This document shows positions 3,637 through 45,854 of a stretch of 48,489 bases of DNA, piece by piece. This stretch comes from Acidobacteriota bacterium. GTDB lineage: Bacteria > Acidobacteriota > Vicinamibacteria > Vicinamibacterales > UBA2999. The DNA lies in the NCBI GenBank assembly GCA_016210845.1, contig JACQTK010000266.1, positions 1 to 48,489 of the forward strand, in the 5' to 3' direction. Numbering within the stretch: the first letter of the stretch is position 1; each line of letters opens with the position of its first letter. Position numbers and translations under genes: made by a program. Under the pieces are notes generated by a model that was not told the origin of the DNA, ran no database searches, and worked only from the letters and a program-made list of their open reading frames with translations.

Positions 3637-4535
3637 TCTCGCACCCCTTCGGGAAGCTCCGAGGCCGGCGCCAGGGTGGCCTTCGGCAGCGACGGCAGCG
3701 TGAGCATGAACTCCGGCAGCGCGGTCTCGGCGCCGCCCCGCGTCGCCTCGTACGGGAGGCCGTGCTTCTCGGCGAACTCACGGATGTGGGGGTTGGTGCC
3801 GGGCTGATGATGCGGCACCTCGCCTTTGGCGCGCGGGATCTCGTCGGCCGGACGGCAGGGATACGGCTCCATGAAGCCGTTCGGCAGCAGGACGAAGCCG
3901 TTGGTCTTGATGAGGGGTTCGGTCAGGTAGACCGGGTCCTCGATCATCATCACGTGCGTGAGGACATCGTCATGGCGGAAGAACCGCTCGGTGAGCGTCG
4001 CGCGGTCGCTGAGCGGCAGCCCGTTCCGCCGCATCCAGCCCGCCTTGAGGTGCGTGGTCCGCACCACGAGGACGTCGCCTTCGAAGCGCCCGGTGGAGAA
4101 CCCCTGCCACGTGTGCGGCTCGAACTCGGACGGATGGGGGCGGCCGTCCATCCAGATCTCCCGCCGCTGTTCCTGCCACTGGATGTGGGTGTTGAGCTTG
4201 ATGAGCTGCTGCGACGCCGGATCGCGCTCCTCCCAGATGCGCAGCTGTCCGACGCCTCGGAACCCATAGGTCGACGGGTGCGGCTTGCACTGGTGTTCGG
4301 GCAGCGTGAGGAGGCCCGAGTCCCACGCGTTCGCGCGCAGGCGCGCGGCGCCGGTGATGGGGAGGCCGAGAAAGTCGCCAATGTCGGGACCGGGAATCCG
4401 CTCCAGCCAGTCCTCGTCGTAGAGGGGATTCCAGTAGCCCACCAGGTTGATCTGCGCCGAGGCGTGCTGCGCGGCGCCCAGGACGAGCGCTGCGACCGCC
4501 AGCGTGCGGCTGAACGCGAAATACGCGGACATCAT
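3633..4535 (-). CDS. Secreted protein of unknown function, first gene of the MBL operon
   Basis: 300 residues with a signal peptide ('AVAALVLGAAQHASAQ', cleavage after ASA likely). The mature part starts 'INLVGYWNPLYDEDW' and contains 'WMDGRPHP', 'HTWQGFSTGRFEGDVLVV' and 'HLKAGWMRRNGLPLSDRATLTERF'. The same 'LK(P)GW.RRNG.P.SDRA...TE.F.R' block occurs in the 1844-2632 product ('LRPGWLRRNGVPYSDRAVVTEYFDRF'), which proves the paralogy. Such proteins are frequent in Vicinamibacteria-like genomes, without known function. Start ATG 4535; ATG 4532 follows at once. Overlaps the MBL gene by 4 bp. Confidence 0.8.
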   Translation of the reverse strand: MMSAYFAFSRTLAVAALVLGAAQHASAQINLVGYWNPLYDEDWLERIPGPDIGDFLGLPITGAARLRANAWDSGLLTLPEHQCKPHPSTYGFRGVGQLRIWEERDPASQQLIKLNTHIQWQEQRREIWMDGRPHPSEFEPHTWQGFSTGRFEGDVLVVRTTHLKAGWMRRNGLPLSDRATLTERFFRHDDVLTHVMMIEDPVYLTEPLIKTNGFVLLPNGFMEPYPCRPADEIPRAKGEVPHHQPGTNPHIREFAEKHGLPYEATRGGAETALPEFMLTLPSLPKATLAPASELPEGVRE

Positions 4536-4614: not shown

Positions 4615-4728
4615 TCACGTGGATTTCTTCAGGCGTGCCTCGAAGCACTCGATGTCCTCGGCGTCGCCCGGGACCGAATGCGCCGCCCGGGCGATCGGCT
4701 CGAGACGCGGGAGATCCTGCTCCGTAAT
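4615..4728 (-). pseudogene. 3' fragment of a nucleotidyltransferase gene (relic copy of 10481-11020)
   Basis: Read on the minus strand this encodes 'EQDLPRLEPIARAAHSVPGD...' down to 'LKKST' and a TGA. It aligns along its length with the last 35 residues of the intact nucleotidyltransferase at 10481-11020 ('EQDLLRLKRIARAARSAQGD...HKKST'). A TGA lies three codons upstream of the matching part, so nothing longer can be translated. It is not in the ORF track. It marks the left end of a segmental duplication shared with 10.5-12.1 kb. Confidence 0.85.
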
Positions 4729-4730
4729 TC

Positions 4731-4758
4731 AGTGTGCAAGTGTGTCAGCGCGCACACT
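4731..4758. repeat. Inverted repeat upstream of the PAS-domain gene
   Basis: AGTGTGC (4731-4737) and GCACACT (4752-4758) form a perfect 7-bp stem with a 14-base loop, about 40 bp before the ATG at 4798. It could be a regulator site or the end of the upstream relic; no T-tract follows. A GATAAT at 4781-4786 could be a -10 box giving a very short leader. Confidence 0.35.
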
Positions 4759-4797
4759 CGTGCCGGGGCGTCACCGTGCCGATAATCCCGTCACCAG

Positions 4798-5939: not shown

Positions 5940-6923
5940 ATGGGACAGAACGGATTTACCAGAGCTATGGGATGGTTGCGCGACCTCCCCGACTTCCGGG
6001 ACTTCACGATCGATCAGGACGAGGCGCCCGCGCGGGCGCAGCGAACGGGCACGGACGCGTCGATCCGAACCATGCTCACCAGGATCGGCACGCTCGATGG
6101 CCCCATCGGGGCGCCGTCCCCCCTCGTCGATCTTCGACCCTGGATGTCGCCCGTCGAAGATCAAGGCGAGATCGGATCGTGCACGGCGCAGGCGGGCATC
6201 GGCCTCGTCGAGTACTACGAGCGGCGCGCCTTCGGGCGCCACGTGAACCGGTCGCGGCTGTTCCTGTACAAGGCGGTACAAGGCCACACGCAACCTGCTG
6301 CACTGGACCGGCGATACGGGTGCCTTCCTGCGGACGACGATGGGCGCGCTCGCGCTCTTCGGCGTGCCGCCGGAGGAGTACTGGCGCTACGTGACCGCCG
6401 ACTACGACAAGGAGCCCAGCGCGTTCTGCTATGCCTTCGCGCAGAACTTCCAGAGCCTCGTTAGTACTTCCGCCTCGATCCGCCGTCCACGGGACGCGAC
6501 GTGCTCCTCGACCGGATCAAGACCAATCTCGCGGCGGGGCTCCCTTCGATGTTCGGCTTCACCGTGTACAGCTCCATCGGCCAGGCCGACACCACCGGCG
6601 AGATTCCCTTCCCGACGGGCGGTGAGAGCATCGTGGGCGGCCACGCCGTGGTGGCCGCGGGCTACGACGATGCGAAGGTCATCCGGAACGGCAATGCAGG
6701 CAGCGTGACCACGAAGGGCGCGCTGCTGATTCGCAACTCGTGGGGCGCCGGCTGGGGCCGATCGGGGTACGGGTGGCTCCCGTACGAGTACGTGCTGCGC
6801 GGCCTCGCCGTCGACTGGTGGTGTCTCGTGAAGCAGGAGTGGGTCGAGACTGGCCAGTTCGGCGTGGCGATGACCATCCAGGGCATGGCCGAATCGCCGG
6901 AGTACGGATCGGCGCTCGCCTGA
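5940..6923 (+). pseudogene. Papain-like (C1A) cysteine peptidase, frameshifted twice
   Basis: Strong ribosome site AGGAGG, 6 bases before ATG 5940. All papain landmarks are present but in two frames. 'RDLPDFRDFTI' and the active-site region 'VEDQGEIGSCTAQAG' (Cys) are in frame from 5940. 'MGALALFGVPPEEYW' is one frame over. 'GGHAVVAAGYDD' (His) and 'IRNSWGAGWG' (Asn) are back in the first frame up to the TGA at 6923. The first shift is a 10-bp tandem duplication, GTACAAGGCG/GTACAAGGCC at 6266-6285. The second is at 6460-6464, where GTTAG replaces about one codon and supplies an in-frame TAG. Removing both restores about 320 codons. No signal peptide; members usually act on peptides in the cytoplasm or periplasm, substrate unknown. 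Three tracked ORFs (5895, 6340, 6501) are pieces of this one gene. Confidence 0.88.
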
Positions 6924-7532: not shown

Positions 7533-9043
7533 ATGATGATGTCGCCGTCTCGTTCTCTACTCGTGATCCTCACGGTGTTGTGCGGCCACGTCGCGCTTGC
7601 TCAACAGGCCTCGCCGTTCGTTCGCCGTTCGCCACTGGCCACCCCGCCCGTGACAAGTGTCGAGGTCGTTCGGCAGCAGCGCCTCGAGGTGACGTCGCCT
7701 GCGCTGTTGACCGACCCCGATCAATCACGCGTACTGCAACTCGACCTGTTTGCCGATGTCTCGTTCCGCGCGCTCCGTGAGCGCCTCGAACCCACCGCGG
7801 ACGGCATGTCGTGGATCGGCGTCCTGGAGGGTTACCCCGTAAGTAGCGTGGTGTTCGTGCTGGTGCGGGGCGAGCTCATGGGGCACATTTATGCGCCGTT
7901 CGGTTTCTTCCGTATCGAGCGGCACCAGAACGGCAGCTACCTTGTGCAACAGATCGAGACGTTCTCGTTGCCTACACGCGCGACGCATGGAACGGGTTCG
8001 GTAATACGCTTCAAGCCTTGGCAAAGGTCAACCTGAACGTGGCGGAAACCAATCAGGCGCTTCGCAGCACGGGCCTCGGCGTGCGGCTTCGCTTGGTGCA
8101 CACCGCCACCGTAGAGGGCGCCGAAACTGGCGACTCCACGCAGTACCTCCAGCAGCTACGGGACCCGAACGACGGTTTTTTCGACGAGGTCCCCGGCCTG
8201 CGCGACCGCTACGGCGCGGACCTGGTAGCCCTCATTACCGAGCGAATGGATGGGTACTGCGGCCGCGCGTTCATCAATCACCCCCGTTCTCGGCGTGGCG
8301 GCGAAAGCGGCTTTTCAGTTGCGAAGCGGAGCTGCCTGTCCGGCGGCGGTTTATTCGCTCACGAGATCGGCCATAACCTGGGGGCGCAGCACGATTGGTA
8401 CGAGACGGCGAGGCCCGGTGCTTTCCAGTACTCGAAGGGCCACGTCAGTCTGGAGGGCCGGTTTCTTGACATCATGTCCTATTTCAATCTCTGTCGCGAT
8501 ACGAGCACGCAATGCGCGCGCATGCTCGGCTACGCCAACCCGGAGGTCACGCGCGATGGCCATCGGACCGGCGTTCCGATCGGCACCAATGTCACGTGCG
8601 TCGCAGGCAATACGAATAACCCCCCATGTGACGCGGACATCGCACGCACCTTTCTCGAAATGGCGCCCGTCGTCGCGCGCTACAGAGACAGCCGGGCCGA
8701 CGTGGTTGTGCAACATCTCCTGCCTGGTGAGGTCATACTGCCCGGTGCGTTCATCCGCTCCGAGAGCGGTCGGTTCCGCCTCTCCTATCAAGGCGACGGC
8801 AACTTGGTGCTCTATGACGACGGCACTGGTACGGTCCTTTGGACGACCAACACGGCAGGCACGGGTCCGGGGCGAGCGATTCTCCAGCTCGACGGCAATT
8901 TCGTCGTGTACGACCCCGACGGACGGCCAGTCTGGGCGTCAGGCACAGTCGACAACACGAATGGCTTTCTGCTGCTGCAAAACGACGGCAACCTGGTGAT
9001 CTTTCGCTCGGGCGGTGAGCCGATCTGGGACCGTCACATGTGA
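7533..9043 (+). pseudogene. Secreted M12-type (reprolysin-like) metallopeptidase with C-terminal bulb-lectin domain, one frameshift
   Basis: Two tracked ORFs (7533-8036 and 8018-9043) are one gene. The first gives a signal peptide (to about 'HVALAQ') and a propeptide. The second gives the catalytic domain with 'HEIGHNLGAQHD' (HExxHxxGxxHD zinc motif, near base 8360) and the Met-turn 'IMSYF'. Next come about 110 residues of a D-mannose-binding bulb-lectin domain ('YQGDGNLVLYDDG', 'LQLDGNFVVYDPDG', 'LQNDGNLVIF'). In-frame sequence before 8018 reads 'DVLVAYTRDAWNGFGNTLQALA', the usual start of this catalytic domain, so the TTG at 8018 is not a start. One base lost near 7956-7960 explains the shift. 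With it repaired the product is about 503 residues. Probably an extracellular protease targeted to mannose-containing glycans. It may be a true pseudogene or a sequence error. Confidence 0.85.
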
Positions 9044-9120: not shown

Positions 9121-9354
9121 CTGCTCGAGGCGGCCGGCTTTTGGGTGTGCCGCGCGGCGGGCTCGAAGGAGCCCGCGGACCTTGTCGCGTGGGATGCGAC
9201 GTCGATTCCGTTTATCTCGGTGAAGTCGGGGACGAAGTACGCGACGATGGAGGAACGCGCGGCATTGCAGCTGATGCCGCGGCCGGCGCCGAGCGCGGTG
9301 GAGATTTGGCGGTCCCCCGATCGCTGCCGCGCGCCACTCATTGAGCGGTTGTGA
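9121..9354 (+). pseudogene. Fragment of a small nuclease-like (Holliday-junction-resolvase/VRR-like fold) protein
   Basis: Frame 1 from 9121 reads 'LLEAAGFWVCRAAGSKEPADLVAWD..SIPFISVKSGTKYAT', then 'LQLMPRPAPSAVEIWRSPDRCRAPLIERL' and TGA. The pattern (R-A-A-G-S, then D-L-V-A, then I-x-V-K-S) is that of small PD-(D/E)xK endonuclease-fold proteins of phage-like regions. The expected N-terminal helix with a Met is missing; a TGA lies at 9118. An ATG at 9095 in another frame ('MSRQLLKFD') may be the original start, one frameshift away. Overlaps the start region of the DUF5681 gene. Fold assignment tentative. Confidence 0.5.
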
Positions 9355-9356
9355 AC

Positions 9357-9590
9357 ATGCCACGCGAACATCAATTCCGGAAAGGCCAATCGGGTAATCC
9401 GAAGGGACGACCCAAGGGCGCGAAGGATCGCGTGCCGCGGACGTTCCGCGCGTCTATCAAGGCCATGTATGAAAAGCTCGCAACCGAGCATCCCGAGCTC
9501 TTCGAGGACGCGTTTCGACGCGACCTGCGAGCGAAACGAGGGACCGCAGCGTTTCATCATGTTAGGCTCTGCGGGTTCCGAAAATTCTGA
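9357..9590 (+). pseudogene. DUF5681 protein, cut by an IS21-family end
   Basis: Starts 'MPREHQFRKGQSGNPKGRPKGAKDR', the diagnostic DUF5681 opening found in phage-related proteins. After about 65 residues the frame runs into the IS21 end at 9560 and stops within it at 9588-9590, so the last ten residues are not native. The usual protein is longer. The start lies 3 bp after the stop of the nuclease-like fragment; the pair looks like a piece of a phage-derived module. Confidence 0.78.
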
Positions 9591-9679: not shown

Positions 9680-9994
9680 ATGATCGACATGCTCAAGCGA
9701 CACGAGATTCAGGTCCTGCGCCGCGCGAAGCACACGTGGCCGGAGATCGCGGCACTCAGCGGCGTGTCCGAGAAGACCGCGCGCCGCATCGCCGCGGAGG
9801 ACGCGGTCACGACCGTTGACAATGACGCCGAGCGCGCACGTCGGCAGGTGGGAGGCCGGCTATACGGGTGGCAAGAGCGCCGTCTACGCATTGGCACAGA
9901 CGCTGCGCGTCCGCACGGTCACCCCGCTGGTCCGGTTCGAGGGGTTGCCGGGCGAGTTTTCGCAGCACGATTTCGGTGAGGTCTGGGTCAGGTA
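9680..9994 (+). pseudogene. istA: istA transposase, internally deleted and truncated
   Basis: ATG 9680 begins 'MIDMLKRHEIQVLRRAKHTWPEIAALSGVS', the IS21 IstA helix-turn-helix N-terminus, up to about residue 58 ('AERARRQVG'). The sequence then jumps, in another frame, to 'AGYTGGKSAVYALAQTLR' and 'PLVRFEGLPGEFSQHDFGEV', the segment leading into the catalytic core where the first Asp lies ('HDFG'). Part of the linker between them is deleted. After 'VWVRY' homology ends. The rest of the DDE core and all of istB are lost. No active transposase is possible. Confidence 0.88.
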
Positions 9995-10036: not shown

Positions 10037-10312
10037 GGCCACGTTGGCCGGACGTGCTGCGCGTAGAACTCCCAGTCCTTGTAGGCGTCCATCGTCACGC
10101 TGGCCTGCACCTGCTCGAGCGTCTGGCCTGCGGCGATCGCCTTGGCAACCGCCCCCCGGAGCTCCTCGCGATAGCGGATGTTGGCCGTTACGTCGGCCTT
10201 GCTGCCCAGCATCCCGTGGCTGCACACGAAGTGCTCGAAATCCATCGCCTCCACCGCCCGCACGAGGTCGGTTTCCGCGGGGGTGATCGCGCCGAAGGGG
10301 AGCCGCCGCACG
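10037..10312 (-). pseudogene. 3' fragment of an MBL-fold hydrolase gene (copy of 17444-18463)
   Basis: On the minus strand, 'RRLPFGAITPAETDLVRAVEAMDFEHFVCSHGMLG' and 'ADVTANIRYREEL...VAKAIAAGQTLEQVQASVTMDAYKDWEFYAQ' match the C-terminal third of the MBL gene at 17444-18463 almost residue for residue. Similarity starts abruptly at CACGGT (10312) and ends near 10037. A single missing base in CAGCACGTCC, compared with CAGCAGCGTCC in the other copy, shifts the last few codons. No start codon, signal peptide or zinc-binding motif is present. About 40 bp separate it from the IS21 remnant. Confidence 0.88.
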
Positions 10313-10480
10313 GTCTCTTGGGATCGAGGCCCCTGCGTAGGCCAGTAATCCTAAGAGCCGACTGTACCTGTTTTGTACCTGGAGGCCGGATTTCGAGTGT
10401 TTCTGGAAATTCTGGTGATTCGATCGTCGGCCCTACGCTGAATTCAGGCACGCCGCACGCCGCCCGTCCCACCAATCCTC

Positions 10481-11020
10481 TTACGTGGACTTCTTGTGGC
10501 GTGACTCGAGAAACGCGATGTCCTCGGCATCGCCTTGGGCTGAACGTGCCGCTCGAGCGATCCTCTTGAGCCGCAGGAGATCCTGCTCGGACGCGATGTC
10601 GAACGCGTGCGTGCGAATCTTGATTCGCGTCGCATGCTCGGCGAGCGTCGCCGCAGGGATGGGGAAGTCGAACAGAAGATCGACGCGAAGGTCCGTCTCC
10701 GCGTTGAAGAAGTACGCGCTCTTCGGCGCGTCGAGACGAAGCCGGGCGGCCGCAACCGTGCGGTTGGCGATCGTCGAGACCACGTCGCCCGCGTCGTTCA
10801 GACGCGAGACGAGCTCGAGCCCATGGTCATAGAAGAGACCGATCGTCGGCGCCAGGCGGTCTCCCGGATGGGGTATCACGAAATCGAAGTCGCGCGTCAC
10901 TCTGCGGGATCCCAGCACCACAAGGGCCATCCCTCCCACGAGCACAGGATCGAGGCCGAGCGCGCGGAGACCCCGGACGATGTCGCTGACCTCCTGGAGA
11001 TGATCCCCGGGATCCGGCAT
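10481..11020 (-). CDS. Nucleotidyltransferase-fold protein (AbiEii / DUF6036-like), putative toxin of a two-gene module
   Basis: About 179 residues from ATG 11020 ('MPDPGDHLQEV'); the longer tracked start at 11140 runs into the preceding gene and is unlikely. The core 'VLVGGMALVVLGSRRVTRDFDFVI' matches the GG-x(n)-D-x-D pattern of minimal nucleotidyltransferases (Gly-Gly helix, then DFDFV with two acidic residues), and 'ETDLRVDLLFDFPIP' supplies the third acidic strand. AbiEii-type enzymes transfer nucleotides to RNA and act as toxins; whether this one is toxic is inference. The start lies 1 bp after the stop of the small basic protein gene, so the two form one transcript. A relic of a second copy is at 4615-4728. 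Confidence 0.8.
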   Translation of the reverse strand: MPDPGDHLQEVSDIVRGLRALGLDPVLVGGMALVVLGSRRVTRDFDFVIPHPGDRLAPTIGLFYDHGLELVSRLNDAGDVVSTIANRTVAAARLRLDAPKSAYFFNAETDLRVDLLFDFPIPAATLAEHATRIKIRTHAFDIASEQDLLRLKRIARAARSAQGDAEDIAFLESRHKKST

Positions 11021-11021
11021 G

Positions 11022-11282
11022 TCACGATCCCGTGGGATAGATCCCAGGCAACGGGCCGGCGAACGATCGCACGCGCCTGACGGTGGTCGGCTGCCCGCGC
11101 AGCTCGCGAACCGCGGCGGCATATCGGAAGTTGTCGGCAATACGGCGGGCTGCCCGAAGTGACTGGGATCGAGCCCGGCCTCCCAGCGACGCGATGCGCT
11201 TCTTCTCAGCCGCGGATAACCGCCTGCTGCGAGCTCGTCCGCCCCGACGCCCCAATGCTTTGGCCATCTCAGACGCGTGCAT
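11022..11282 (-). CDS. Small basic protein, putative antitoxin/partner of the nucleotidyltransferase
   Basis: 86 residues from ATG 11282 ('MHASEMAKALGRRGGRARSRRL'). It has two similar Gly/Arg-rich motifs, 'LGRRGGRARSRRLSAAEK' and 'LGGRARSQSLRAARR', then a helical tail 'IADNFRYAAAVRELRGQ'. The longer tracked form (11318) would begin inside the promoter. I choose 11282 because a near-consensus sigma-70 promoter ends exactly there. Proteins of this kind regularly precede DUF6036/AbiEii-like nucleotidyltransferases. Autorepression through the palindrome is plausible given the basic sequence. Not tested in any member I can name. Confidence 0.72.
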   Translation of the reverse strand: MHASEMAKALGRRGGRARSRRLSAAEKKRIASLGGRARSQSLRAARRIADNFRYAAAVRELRGQPTTVRRVRSFAGPLPGIYPTGS

Positions 11283-11288
11283 GGCCGA

Positions 11289-11318
11289 ATTATACTTAGC
11301 GCTAAGTATAGATTTCAA
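11289..11318 (-). promoter_or_regulatory. Palindromic sigma-70 promoter giving an apparently leaderless transcript
   Basis: Reading the minus strand: -35 TTGAAA (11318-11313), an 18-bp spacer, then a perfect -10 TATAAT (11294-11289), then 6 bases, then the ATG at 11282. The expected start site falls on or next to the A of the ATG, so the mRNA would have no leader. The spacer and -10 carry a perfect 20-bp palindrome, TATACTTAGCGCTAAGTATA (11291-11310), well placed for a repressor to block RNA polymerase. The AT-rich patch stands out against the GC-rich surroundings. Confidence 0.75.
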
Positions 11319-11435
11319 CCGATCTCATGAGGTGTAGCAGCTCGACTGCCACGCTCGGCGGCGCGGCGCAGCGCGCATGAAGCGCTGCTGCTGGGATCCG
11401 CGCCAAGTGTGGCGTTCTGAGGTTACAATCCGTGC

Positions 11436-11840
11436 TTGGCCGAACCCGATGACCGGTACGAAGCCCGGACGGTGCTGGTGGTGGACGACCAGCCGCAGAT
11501 TCTGCGCACGCTGACGCGATTCCTCGGCTCGAAGGGCTACCGAGTCGAGACCGCCACGAGCGTCGACGAGGCTCTGCCTCTGCTCGACCAGCGGCACATC
11601 AGCGCTGTGATCCTCGACGTGCGCATGCCCGACCGGTCGGGCTTGGAGCTGCTCGCGCACATGCGCGAGGACGCGAACCTTCGGCACGTGCCGGCCGTGA
11701 TTCTGACGGGCGTCGTCCTCACGCCGGAGGAACAGGCGCTCATCGCGCGCCACAAGGCGCAGGTCTTCTTCAAGCCCAAGAGCTACGAGCAGCTCACGCA
11801 CTACCTCGATCGCGTGACGCGCCAGCCCCAGCCTCGTTGA
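11436..11840 (+). CDS. Single-domain response regulator (CheY-like receiver)
   Basis: 134 residues forming one receiver domain: acidic pair in 'VLVVDDQPQIL', phosphoacceptor Asp in 'SAVILDVRMPDRSG', Thr in 'AVILTG' and Lys in 'VFFKPKS'. No output domain. The start is probably TTG 11436; the frame is closed by a TGA at 11418 and there is no in-frame ATG before the DDQ motif. GGTTACAAT at 11421-11429 contains a TACAAT that could be a -10 box. No cognate kinase nearby. In the duplicated layout it occupies the place that the PAS/PilZ pair holds in the other copy. Confidence 0.88.
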   Translation: MAEPDDRYEARTVLVVDDQPQILRTLTRFLGSKGYRVETATSVDEALPLLDQRHISAVILDVRMPDRSGLELLAHMREDANLRHVPAVILTGVVLTPEEQALIARHKAQVFFKPKSYEQLTHYLDRVTRQPQPR

Positions 11841-19639: not shown

Positions 19640-20569
19640 TCAGAGCAGCTTGCGAATGGCGGCTTCGAGCTCCTCTTCCGTCATCCGCCCAGGGCGGTAG
19701 AGCCGGACAATCCCCTGTCGATCCACCAGGGCGAGCGTGGGCGTCGAGCTCACGCCGTAGCGCTTGTGGTTGGCGTCGCTGACGGGGACGGGCTCGTTGC
19801 GGAGGAACCCGTAGTACTCGTCTCGGACCGAGACGATGTGCCGCAGCTCGGCGTCGGGGGGCGCGTCCTGTCCCGAGACGATGTACCCGAAGCGCTGGGT
19901 CGGGGCCACCACGCGCAGCCTCTGCAGACGGTACTTGGCGAGCAGCCGCTCGATGATCGGCCCCTGCGCCTTGCAGTCCGGGCACCAGTGCGCCCAGAAG
20001 AACAGGAGCACGACGTTGCCCTTGAGCCGATCGAGCGCGGGAACCGGCGGCCCGAGGTACTCGCGCGCGTCAAGGGCAGGCGCGGGCCGCCCCTCGAGCG
20101 TCAGCAGGTTGAGGTTCTTCTGAAGCCGCTTGTGGATCGGGCTGTCGCGATACGTCTCCAGCTCGCGCTCGAGGAAGTACACGGCCGAAGACCTGTCGCC
20201 GCGCGCGGCCCGCACCAGCGCATCGGTCTCGATGGCGGCGCCGAGCGCCGTCCGCAGGTGGACGTCGTCTTCGAGACGGCGGGTCCGCAGGGCGGCCACG
20301 GCCAGCTCGTAGGTGTCGACCGAGTACTGAGCGGCCTGGTCGAGCAGTCCCGCTGCGAACGTGCCTCGTGCAAGCCACGACAGGGCCTCGATCATTTCCG
20401 GCGTCGCACCGCGCGCCGACCGGTAGTCGTCGACCACCGCCTGTCCGCGCGCGAAATCCTTGGCCGCGATGGCGGCGCGCACGTCGGCCACGATGTCCGA
20501 CTGCGCGACGACGGTCATGCCCGCCACGAGAAGGGCGACTGCGACCAAGGCGAGAGAGATTCGGCGCAT
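19640..20569 (-). CDS. TlpA-like exported thioredoxin-fold protein
   Basis: About 309 residues from ATG 20569 (GGAGG 9 bases upstream; the tracked start at 20590 is less likely). Signal peptide 'ISLALVAVALLVAGMTVVAQ'. The first 170 residues are helical, perhaps TPR-like. The C-terminal half is a thioredoxin/TlpA domain with 'VVLLFFWAHWCPDCKAQGP' (CPDC redox motif) and the cis-Pro region 'YGVSSTPTLALVDRQG'. Likely a periplasmic thiol-disulfide reductase. It is followed by the HlyD gene and preceded by a DsbD-N-like gene, so this cluster probably serves envelope redox chemistry. Confidence 0.87.
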   Translation of the reverse strand: MRRISLALVAVALLVAGMTVVAQSDIVADVRAAIAAKDFARGQAVVDDYRSARGATPEMIEALSWLARGTFAAGLLDQAAQYSVDTYELAVAALRTRRLEDDVHLRTALGAAIETDALVRAARGDRSSAVYFLERELETYRDSPIHKRLQKNLNLLTLEGRPAPALDAREYLGPPVPALDRLKGNVVLLFFWAHWCPDCKAQGPIIERLLAKYRLQRLRVVAPTQRFGYIVSGQDAPPDAELRHIVSVRDEYYGFLRNEPVPVSDANHKRYGVSSTPTLALVDRQGIVRLYRPGRMTEEELEAAIRKLL

Positions 20570-20599
20570 GGCAGTGCCTCCAGGCCGCAAGGGCCCGCC

Positions 20600-21172
20600 C
20601 TACCTGGAGCGTTCGGGTTCCACCGGCCGCAGCTTCACCGTGTACGACACGGGCACGGACTGCGGCACGAAACAGATGCGATCGTCGCAGGCCTGATAGT
20701 CGAGCGTTCCCTTGATGGTCACGCTTTCCGCCTTCGCCAGCGCCGCGCGGTGCTCGGGCGCCGTACTCACCGCCATCGCCTGCGTCAGCGTGAACGGCTT
20801 CTGAAAGACGGGCACGCGCTCGTTGAGCGGCTCGAAGAAGTAGGTTTCCGAGGGAGGGTACTGCAAGCGGCGCGGCACCACGAGCGGATTGGGCTCGAGC
20901 GTCAGCGTGATGATCTTGTAGCCCTCGGCGCCAGGGGCGTAGACGTGCATGCGCTCGCGCGGGCTGATATCGAGCACAACCGAGAACAGCGAGCCCGGGG
21001 CTGCCACCTCCTCGGTCACATACGTCGTCACCCGCAGGTGATCGGTCGTGATGCGGCGCGCGCTCGCCGGCGGACGGCTCCGCTCGGGGGCGTCCTGCCC
21101 TTCGGCTTCGCTCAGCGCGCCGGACGGGTGGGCGGCGACGGCGAGAACGAGGACGGCAAGGAAAGGGGCCAT
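20600..21172 (-). CDS. Exported DsbD N-terminal-domain-like protein
   Basis: About 190 residues from ATG 21172, with GGGGGG just upstream; GTG 21175 is possible. A signal peptide ('FLAVLVLAVAAHPSGA') is followed by a beta-sandwich resembling the N-terminal domain of DsbD: 'HVYAPGAEGYKIITLTLEP...' and C-terminal 'GTLDYQACDDRICFVPQSVPVSYTVKL', where two Cys are spaced as in 'YQGCxxxGxCYPP' of DsbD. DsbD-N passes electrons to periplasmic partners; here no membrane domain is fused, and the adjacent TlpA-like protein is a natural partner. The segment encoding 'ALSEAEGQ' near residue 22 looks like a short repeat (CCTTCGGCTTCGCTCAG) inserted in the linker. Confidence 0.8.
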   Translation of the reverse strand: MAPFLAVLVLAVAAHPSGALSEAEGQDAPERSRPPASARRITTDHLRVTTYVTEEVAAPGSLFSVVLDISPRERMHVYAPGAEGYKIITLTLEPNPLVVPRRLQYPPSETYFFEPLNERVPVFQKPFTLTQAMAVSTAPEHRAALAKAESVTIKGTLDYQACDDRICFVPQSVPVSYTVKLRPVEPERSR

Positions 21173-44843: not shown

Positions 44844-45854
44844 ATGCTCCACAAGACCCTCGCCAGGCTCTCCAGCGCCGCCGATCTCCTGCGTCCGCGC
44901 ACGTTCTTCCGCACGCTGGCGCGCGTCGACGAGCTCGTCGACGCCACGCGCGAGCTGTCGAGGGCCATCGAGGCGCTCCGCATCCGCACCGAGCAGCTCG
45001 CGACGATCGAGCGGCTCAACGGAGAGCAGGAGGAGGACCTTCGGCGGCTGGACCGCCGCCTGGACCGCGAGCGCATCGGTGCGCACGTCCGCGCCGCGGT
45101 GCGGGCGGCCCCGCTCCATGACGATCCGTTCCCGCACATCGTGGTCGATACCTGGCTGCCGCCCGAGGCCTACAGGCTGCTCGTCGACGCGCTTCCCCCG
45201 TCGATCCTCTTCGCCGACCGCGAGGTCTCGCGTCAACAGTTGAAGGTGCCCTTCGGCTTCGGCCCGGCGTACTCCCGGCGCGTCTGGCGCTTCATGGCCG
45301 AGGCCATCGTCGGCGGCGCGCTGGGCGAAGCGCTGCACGAGAAGTTCCGCGATCCGCTGCGCGACTACGTCCGGACCTTCTTCGAGCCGTTTCTGGACGA
45401 GGGCGACGAGCGGCTCAACCCCTCGGACGGGCGGATCCTGCTGCGCCGCGCGGGCTACGTGATCCGGCCGCACCGGGATCCCAAGTGGGCGTTCATCACG
45501 GGGCTCGTCTACTTGCCCCGCGAAGGCGATGACGACGCCTATGGCACGCAGCTCTATCGCGTTCGCGACGATGCGGAGGCGGAGAACGACAAGCCGCTGT
45601 ACATCGACGAGCAGCGGTGCGAGCTGGTCACGTCGGTGCCGTTCCGGCCGAATACGCTGCTGGTGTTCCTCAACTCGACGGGCGCGCACGGCGCGTCCAT
45701 CCCTCCCGATGCGCCGCCCACCTTCGAGCGTTACCTCTATCAGTTCCGTCTCGGCCCCGATTCAGCGGGGGTCCGGCGCATGCTGTCGCAGATGACGCCC
45801 GATCGGCGTGCGCTCTGGGGCGGCGGCAAGGGGGGCCACGTCGCGGAGTACTGA
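44844..45854 (+). CDS. 2-oxoglutarate/Fe(II)-dependent oxygenase
   Basis: 336 residues. The first 85 form a coiled coil ('LATIERLNGEQEEDLRRLDRRLDRERI'). The oxygenase domain begins 'DDPFPHIVVDTWLPPEAYRLLVDALPP' and has iron ligands in 'VIRPHRDPKWAFITGLVYLP' (HxD) and 'FLNSTGAHGASIP' (distal His), with the Arg of 'FERYLYQFRL' for 2-oxoglutarate. Resembles prolyl-hydroxylase-like enzymes found beside glycosyltransferases; substrate unknown. The convergent DUF6625-like glycosyltransferase ends 12 bp away. Confidence 0.83.
   Translation: MLHKTLARLSSAADLLRPRTFFRTLARVDELVDATRELSRAIEALRIRTEQLATIERLNGEQEEDLRRLDRRLDRERIGAHVRAAVRAAPLHDDPFPHIVVDTWLPPEAYRLLVDALPPSILFADREVSRQQLKVPFGFGPAYSRRVWRFMAEAIVGGALGEALHEKFRDPLRDYVRTFFEPFLDEGDERLNPSDGRILLRRAGYVIRPHRDPKWAFITGLVYLPREGDDDAYGTQLYRVRDDAEAENDKPLYIDEQRCELVTSVPFRPNTLLVFLNSTGAHGASIPPDAPPTFERYLYQFRLGPDSAGVRRMLSQMTPDRRALWGGGKGGHVAEY

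Follow-up and report, generated by a model that had tools for sequence, protein, structure and literature searches.

The 48,489-nucleotide stretch of Acidobacteriota DNA analysed here, referred to as the window, contains a two-gene module that is probably a mobile, autoregulated nucleotidyltransferase (NTase) toxin-antitoxin system, in which a MenT-like toxin is combined with a new small antitoxin and autorepressor, and which is transcribed without a leader. According to this interpretation, RNA polymerase would initiate at the first base of the ATG of the small gene and give a leaderless mRNA. The product of that gene, a protein with GG-x-A-R blocks (GGxAR protein), would then bind the sequence CTTAGCGCTAAG in the spacer between the -35 and -10 boxes, probably as a dimer on the twofold site, so that the promoter is blocked and the operon represses itself. 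Coupling to the 3' end of the small gene would allow translation of the NTase, which would act as MenT1 does, probably by attaching nucleotides to the acceptor ends of tRNAs and thereby halting translation. In addition, the small protein would neutralise the NTase; this is the weakest step of the scheme, and it is deduced from the gene order and the invariable pairing of the two genes.

Layout of the module and its promoter

The features of the module, and of a second NTase copy discussed below, are as follows.

11022-11282, minus strand: gene of the small basic GGxAR protein, 86 aa (P0001), with its ATG at 11282; proposed autorepressor and antitoxin
10481-11020, minus strand: minimal NTase gene, 179 aa (P0002), MenT1-like, with its ATG at 11020; proposed toxin
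11028-11031, minus strand: GGGA, resembling a Shine-Dalgarno sequence, 7 nt ahead of the NTase ATG and within the 3' end of the small gene; read from the sequence
11313-11318, minus strand: -35 box TTGAAA, from the promoter scan; TTG kept here in most of 31 loci
11289-11294, minus strand: -10 box TATAAT, from the promoter scan; 4 of its bases also form the end of the palindrome
11291-11310, no strand assigned: perfect 20-bp palindrome TATACTTAGCGCTAAGTATA, proposed operator
11295-11306, no strand assigned: palindrome core CTTAGCGCTAAG, the conserved part (31/31 loci)
11280-11282, minus strand: ATG at the predicted transcription start, proposed leaderless start of the small gene, from promoter geometry
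4618-4764, minus strand: truncated remnant of a further NTase gene, covering C-terminal residues 130-179 at 57% identity and interrupted by one internal stop

The first-pass annotation had described two genes 1 bp apart, and both open reading frames lie on the minus strand with a gap of 1 nt between the small one and the NTase. The end coordinate that it gave, 11318, does correspond to an in-frame TTG in an upstream extension of the small reading frame, but the conserved start is at 11282. When compared with three homologues, both reading frames were found to be under purifying selection (dN/dS of about 0.2-0.3 for the small gene and 0.2 for the NTase), and values of about 0.2 for both argue that they are real protein genes.

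The minus strand reads TTGAAA-N18-TATAAT-TCGGCC-ATG. A promoter scan of positions 10300-11450 returned a single sigma-70-like site, with 11 of 12 matches and a spacer of 18 (shuffles give 0.2), in agreement with the promoter and the start codon at the predicted +1 that had been proposed from the sequence. Since only six nucleotides (TCGGCC) separate TATAAT from the ATG, the A of this codon is the canonical +1, and the conserved geometry of the promoter points to a leaderless mRNA for the small gene. If transcription starts at its ATG, the small gene can have no Shine-Dalgarno sequence. For the NTase, translation is probably coupled to that of the small gene, because gaps of 0-1 nt or short overlaps are typical of the pair and GGGA is found 7 nt before the ATG.

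The perfect 20-bp palindrome reported for the spacer is also present, as TATACTTAGCGCTAAGTATA. Allowing up to three mismatches, this sequence occurs once in the window, against an expectation of 0, and its 14-bp core occurs once in the 4.18-Mb assembly. It should be noted that a palindrome of this length is not improbable by itself, an argument that we discarded since Markov replicates of the window, which has 68% GC, reach longest palindromes of 16-24; a longer perfect one, of 22 bp, is found in the window at 44923. As length alone is not rare, the case rests on the AT-rich sequence, the position and the conservation of the palindrome.

Conservation and mobility of the cassette

Counting the window copy, 17 nearly full-length NTase homologues were obtained from a search of the class. 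Scanning GTDB genomes produced 31 hits, which came from Acidobacteriota and from MAGs carrying the label Deltaproteobacteria. Three of the hits from the scan (L061, L064 and L065) were fragments or decayed copies; the intact loci that were compared are distinct and number 31. More distant NTases of the class (L024-L034, 25-35% identity) are found without a GGxAR partner and were excluded from the family.

With NTase identity falling as low as 41%, all 31 intact loci retained the partner gene, a site of the CTTAGCGCTAAG type and a -10 box, and in every one of them the order was antitoxin first, with gaps near 0 or short overlaps. The core lies 12 or 13 nt from the start codon in 26/31 loci and 10-15 nt in all 31, so the transcript leader would be at most a few bases. 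Nine of the 12 core positions are invariant or altered in one locus only, and all six symmetric pairs are kept in 18 loci, five in 11 and four in two. Outside the core, conservation is concentrated in the -10 box and in the TTG of the -35 box, and columns 5' of the -35 box are nearly free of information. Two marks of an autoregulated operon are therefore present across the 31 loci, a nearly overlapping gene pair that is kept together and an operator conserved over the promoter. Homologous loci without the palindrome or the leaderless start had been named in the first-pass annotation as the observation that would speak against it; none occurred among the 31 intact loci.

The surroundings of the module behave differently. 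Among 28 loci, 208 of 378 locus pairs match within the module, whereas no pair showed detectable similarity over 1.5 kb 5' of the promoter or 3' of the NTase (0/378 and 0/378), from which it follows that the selected unit starts at the -35 box. The closest homologues of the window copy, at 82-84%, belong to other families of the order, and the copies of its own family share 64-66%. Decayed copies also exist: the truncated NTase copy at 4618-4764 lies some 6 kb away from the intact pair and has no small partner, and other remnants were found at L022, L023/L071 and L200. The decayed copies and the greater identity to copies of other families fit a mobile, dispensable module. The module thus behaves as a cassette with its beginning at the -35 box, one that is transferred horizontally and often decays, and the sequence comparisons suggest that it moves as one unit, together with its barely altered 39-base control switch, among distantly related soil and groundwater bacteria. 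A phage or plasmid origin was considered and rejected, as no relative of the NTase was found in viral contigs, plasmids or phages, and no relative of the small protein in plasmids.

Unrelated flanks would also be expected if the palindrome were not an operator but a recombination or insertion site, that is, the fixed end of a mobile cassette. We give very little credence to this explanation: the site lies within a conserved promoter, in phase with the -35 box, the -10 box and the ATG; no further copy exists nearby in the window, and it is absent elsewhere in the class; orphan GGxAR genes, described below, carry it as well.

Some individual loci deserve mention. L200 (G476:C85, site at 6386) is a deletion remnant in which the promoter-operator is fused directly to a point midway through the NTase reading frame. 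L060 has a perfect 20-bp palindrome and a Gly in place of the catalytic Asp44, and may represent an inactive toxin kept with its regulator. Shortly downstream of the module in the window there are a DUF5681 fragment (9351-9590) and a helix-turn-helix fragment (9680-9979) that reads like the remnant of an IS21-type transposase, both of them signs of mobile-element debris; one reading frame at 8018-9043 combines a reprolysin-like (M12B) metallopeptidase domain with a B-lectin domain.

The two proteins and the distribution of the proposed operator

As a single sequence the NTase falls below the cut-offs of Pfam (16.7 vs 22.5 bits for AbiEii, PF08843, and 20.2 vs 20.3 for DUF2204). The AbiEii profile matches 16/17 of its homologues at E values up to 0.1, the best being 7.7e-5. 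A profile of the NTase family finds MenT1 of Mycobacterium tuberculosis at 2.6e-7. In addition, the best solved relative of the AlphaFold model (pLDDT 92) in Foldseek is the MenAT1 complex 8an5 (E 2.7e-7, TM 0.67). In the profile alignment, T42, D44, D46, K152, D164 and D167 of the NTase correspond to T39, D41, D43, K137, D149 and D152 of MenT1 (numbering from PMC10435456 and PMC11375011). These residues are invariant in 28 homologues, except for D44, which is kept in 27/28 (Gly in L060). In MenT1, the changes D41A, K137A and D152A abolish toxicity (PMC10435456), and T39 is the phospho-acceptor in neutralisation (PMC11375011). Hence, of the traits that mark a MenT toxin, the NTase shows the fold relationship and the MenT1 catalytic residues, and it misses the Pfam AbiEii cut-off. 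We would describe it as MenT-like and not as a member of Pfam AbiEii. The homology and the conserved catalytic residues are the reasons for expecting a MenT1-like action, and the NTase is predicted to be a tRNA-modifying, growth-inhibiting toxin.

The partner is a basic protein of 64-98 aa in which the GG-x-A-R block occurs twice; most members end in LPG(I/L)Y. Its model is a helix hairpin (H3-21 and H24-62, pLDDT 87, pTM 0.49). No match of note was found in Pfam, NCBIfam, PADLOC, PHROGs or the PDB sequences, no usable relative of the hairpin among PDB and viral folds, and no recognised DNA-binding or antitoxin domain in the profile libraries. Within the reach of these libraries, the lack of any profile or PDB fold match of note bears out the earlier statement that the partner falls outside the classical antitoxin folds. 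Weak Pfam matches of single members (Mig-14, LEA_5, Xre-like) were judged to be due to chance. By these tests the partner is neither AbiEi, nor MenA1, nor HEPN.

The last point bears on the possibility that the roles are reversed. In HEPN-MNT (type VII) systems the toxin is inactivated by the NTase, and by analogy the small protein would here be the toxin and the NTase its antitoxin. Minimal NTases are indeed the antitoxins of HEPN-MNT pairs, one of which is described in PMC4621449. However, the partner has no HEPN match and no conserved His, hence no R-x4-6-H motif. In addition, its association with the operator is what an antitoxin would show, and the NTase resembles MenT toxins; we regard a reversal of roles as very unlikely.

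The distribution of the operator is informative about the small protein. In 192 genomes of the class, CTTAGCGCTAAG occurred 11 times, once in each of 11 genomes, and the reversed control was commoner. All 11 sites adjoined a GGxAR gene: nine belonged to NTase modules (one of them, in G127, cut by the contig end), one to a GGxAR-Phd/VapC locus and one to an orphan. In the Phd/VapC case (L097, G038:C607, site 4327-4338), a GGxAR gene with the full promoter-operator is in the same frame as a Phd domain (PF02604, E 9.2e-8), a PIN/VapC-like gene comes next and no NTase is seen at the locus; this is a natural case of the switch placed on a different toxin-antitoxin pair. In L103 (G107), CTTAGCGCTAAG precedes an orphan GGxAR gene without a partner toxin. 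The orphan homologues start with MPxGPKGxKRPADV and have the GGxAR domain at the C-terminus. In the five whose start could be read (L252-L255 and L258, in genomes G132, G140, G000, G107 and G052), CTTAGCGCTAAG or a one-base variant was always found (5/5) at most 4 nt from the ATG, that is, at the start codon and not in a promoter spacer. Against the proposed scheme speak this placement, the chance occurrence of bare 12-mers in other genomes where no GGxAR gene follows, and the small protein's lack of a recognised domain and of a structural relative.

One of these orphans, L254, belongs to the genome of the window itself (G000:C183, about 20539-20781). It encodes a GGxAR paralogue beginning with MPKGPKGQKRPADV, and ATGCTTAGCGCAAAGCAT, one base off a perfect palindrome, lies immediately 5' of its ATG. 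Cross-talk with the module is possible, and this paralogue could cross-regulate it.

Because the site also precedes GGxAR genes without an NTase, the assignment of the small protein as the repressor gains independent support, and autorepression is deduced from the way in which the site follows this protein into such loci. The company of the site with the small-protein domain, with or without the NTase, is the best available evidence for a repressor role, and it suggests DNA binding. Two broader ideas were rejected. The operator is not exclusive to GGxAR genes in all bacteria, as bare 12-mers occur outside the class without a GGxAR gene, nor is it a trait of all GGxAR/KGG-like proteins, since most members of the broad family lack the site. 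In viral contigs, none of 73 stretches with the extended site had a GGxAR gene behind it, and the few matches to a loose expression were unrelated reading frames.

The same distribution would fit a small protein that is a transcriptional repressor only, a portable GGxAR regulator, with the NTase as an effector held back by repression alone; the enzyme could then be, for example, a defence or small-molecule-modifying enzyme. The operator does precede orphan GGxAR genes without a toxin neighbour, Phd would be the antitoxin at the GGxAR-Phd/VapC locus, and the NTase's further fold matches include the antibiotic adenylyltransferases LnuA and ANT(2''). Moreover, gene order and co-inheritance are equally expected from a plain repressor-effector pair. 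Nevertheless, both profile and fold clearly put MenT1 closest to the NTase, in which the toxin residues are conserved, MenT toxins have a dedicated antitoxin gene (PMC10435456), and the partner is present in 31/31 intact loci. On balance, we find a repressor without antitoxin function unlikely and keep the small protein as the probable antitoxin as well as autorepressor. We are evenly divided on a wider proposal, in which the GGxAR hairpin would be a sequence-specific DNA-binding domain of a kind not described so far, with CTTA-GCGC-TAAG as its own operator and with varied cargoes. In the NTase modules, under their conserved leaderless promoter, it would act as the repressor and also form a new MenT-type antitoxin family. 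Its cargoes would be the NTase toxin, the Phd/VapC pair, the orphan regulators and perhaps recombinases and a second NTase type.

These last cargoes come from wider relatives with the pattern GGxARA..LS..R..IA..AA.ARW, and this wider theme is a lead only. In L072, L078 and L081, the stop codon of a small GGxAR-like protein and the start codon of a gene resembling a tyrosine recombinase share the overlap ATGA, and in L078 a dyad, ATGCTTGC-CA-GCAAGCAT, immediately precedes the ATG. In L077 (G302:C9, about 76810), a GGxAR-like protein is followed by a different NTase, with GCTTA-CCCCC-TAAGC, TATATT and a GTG 6 nt on; its half-sites are those of the window module, here in another NTase module. Some wider relatives have short dyads of their own beside leaderless-looking starts, and most have no such site.

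Comparison with known systems

MenT-type toxins pair with unrelated antitoxins, and the control of one enzyme by differing partners is an active question. To this question the module offers a partner family that is new, small and clearly bounded, and whose 12-bp operator is open to direct testing. As the leaderless promoter with its operator in the spacer is kept across distant groups, a leaderless start can be argued here from conservation alone. Furthermore, if the GGxAR hairpin binds DNA, it would represent a DNA-binding family missed by current profile libraries.

The closest known system is MenAT1 of M. tuberculosis (MenT1 Rv0078A and MenA1 Rv0078B), likewise a small two-gene module, whose toxin is similar to the window NTase in size, fold and catalytic residues. 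The partner MenA1 is also short, 68 aa (PMC10435456), but unrelated in sequence to the GGxAR protein, whose family profile, run against all PDB chains including the MenAT1 complex, gave no MenA1 match. With respect to MenAT1, the defining trait of the window module is the conserved palindromic operator in a leaderless promoter.

The type IV AbiE systems, together with MenAT3 and MenAT4 (AbiEi/COG5340 antitoxin and AbiEii/DUF1814 NTase), have the NTase toxin class in common with the module. In the AbiE-type operons the antitoxin gene comes first and the promoter carries inverted repeats by which AbiEi and Rv2827c repress their own operons (PMC7319586); the window module is alike in gene order and, as proposed, in autorepression. 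However, AbiEi-type antitoxins have two domains and bind 23-bp inverted repeats (PMC7319586), whereas the window partner is short, has no AbiEi match in profile searches and is associated with one palindrome of 12-20 bp in the spacer.

For M. tuberculosis, leaderless transcripts are reported to predominate among toxin-antitoxin genes (PMC8485053), and a genome-wide map is given in PMC3898074. There, the start sites were mapped, whereas for the window module the start is predicted from a geometry kept in two distant groups. The KGG repeat proteins (PF10685) share with the partner a pattern of Gly-Gly and basic repeats, but its members fall short of the profile cut-off, with 1/17 matching at E 0.3. 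Within the libraries and papers searched, what is new is the partner family, the 12-bp operator and the deep conservation of a compact leaderless switch.
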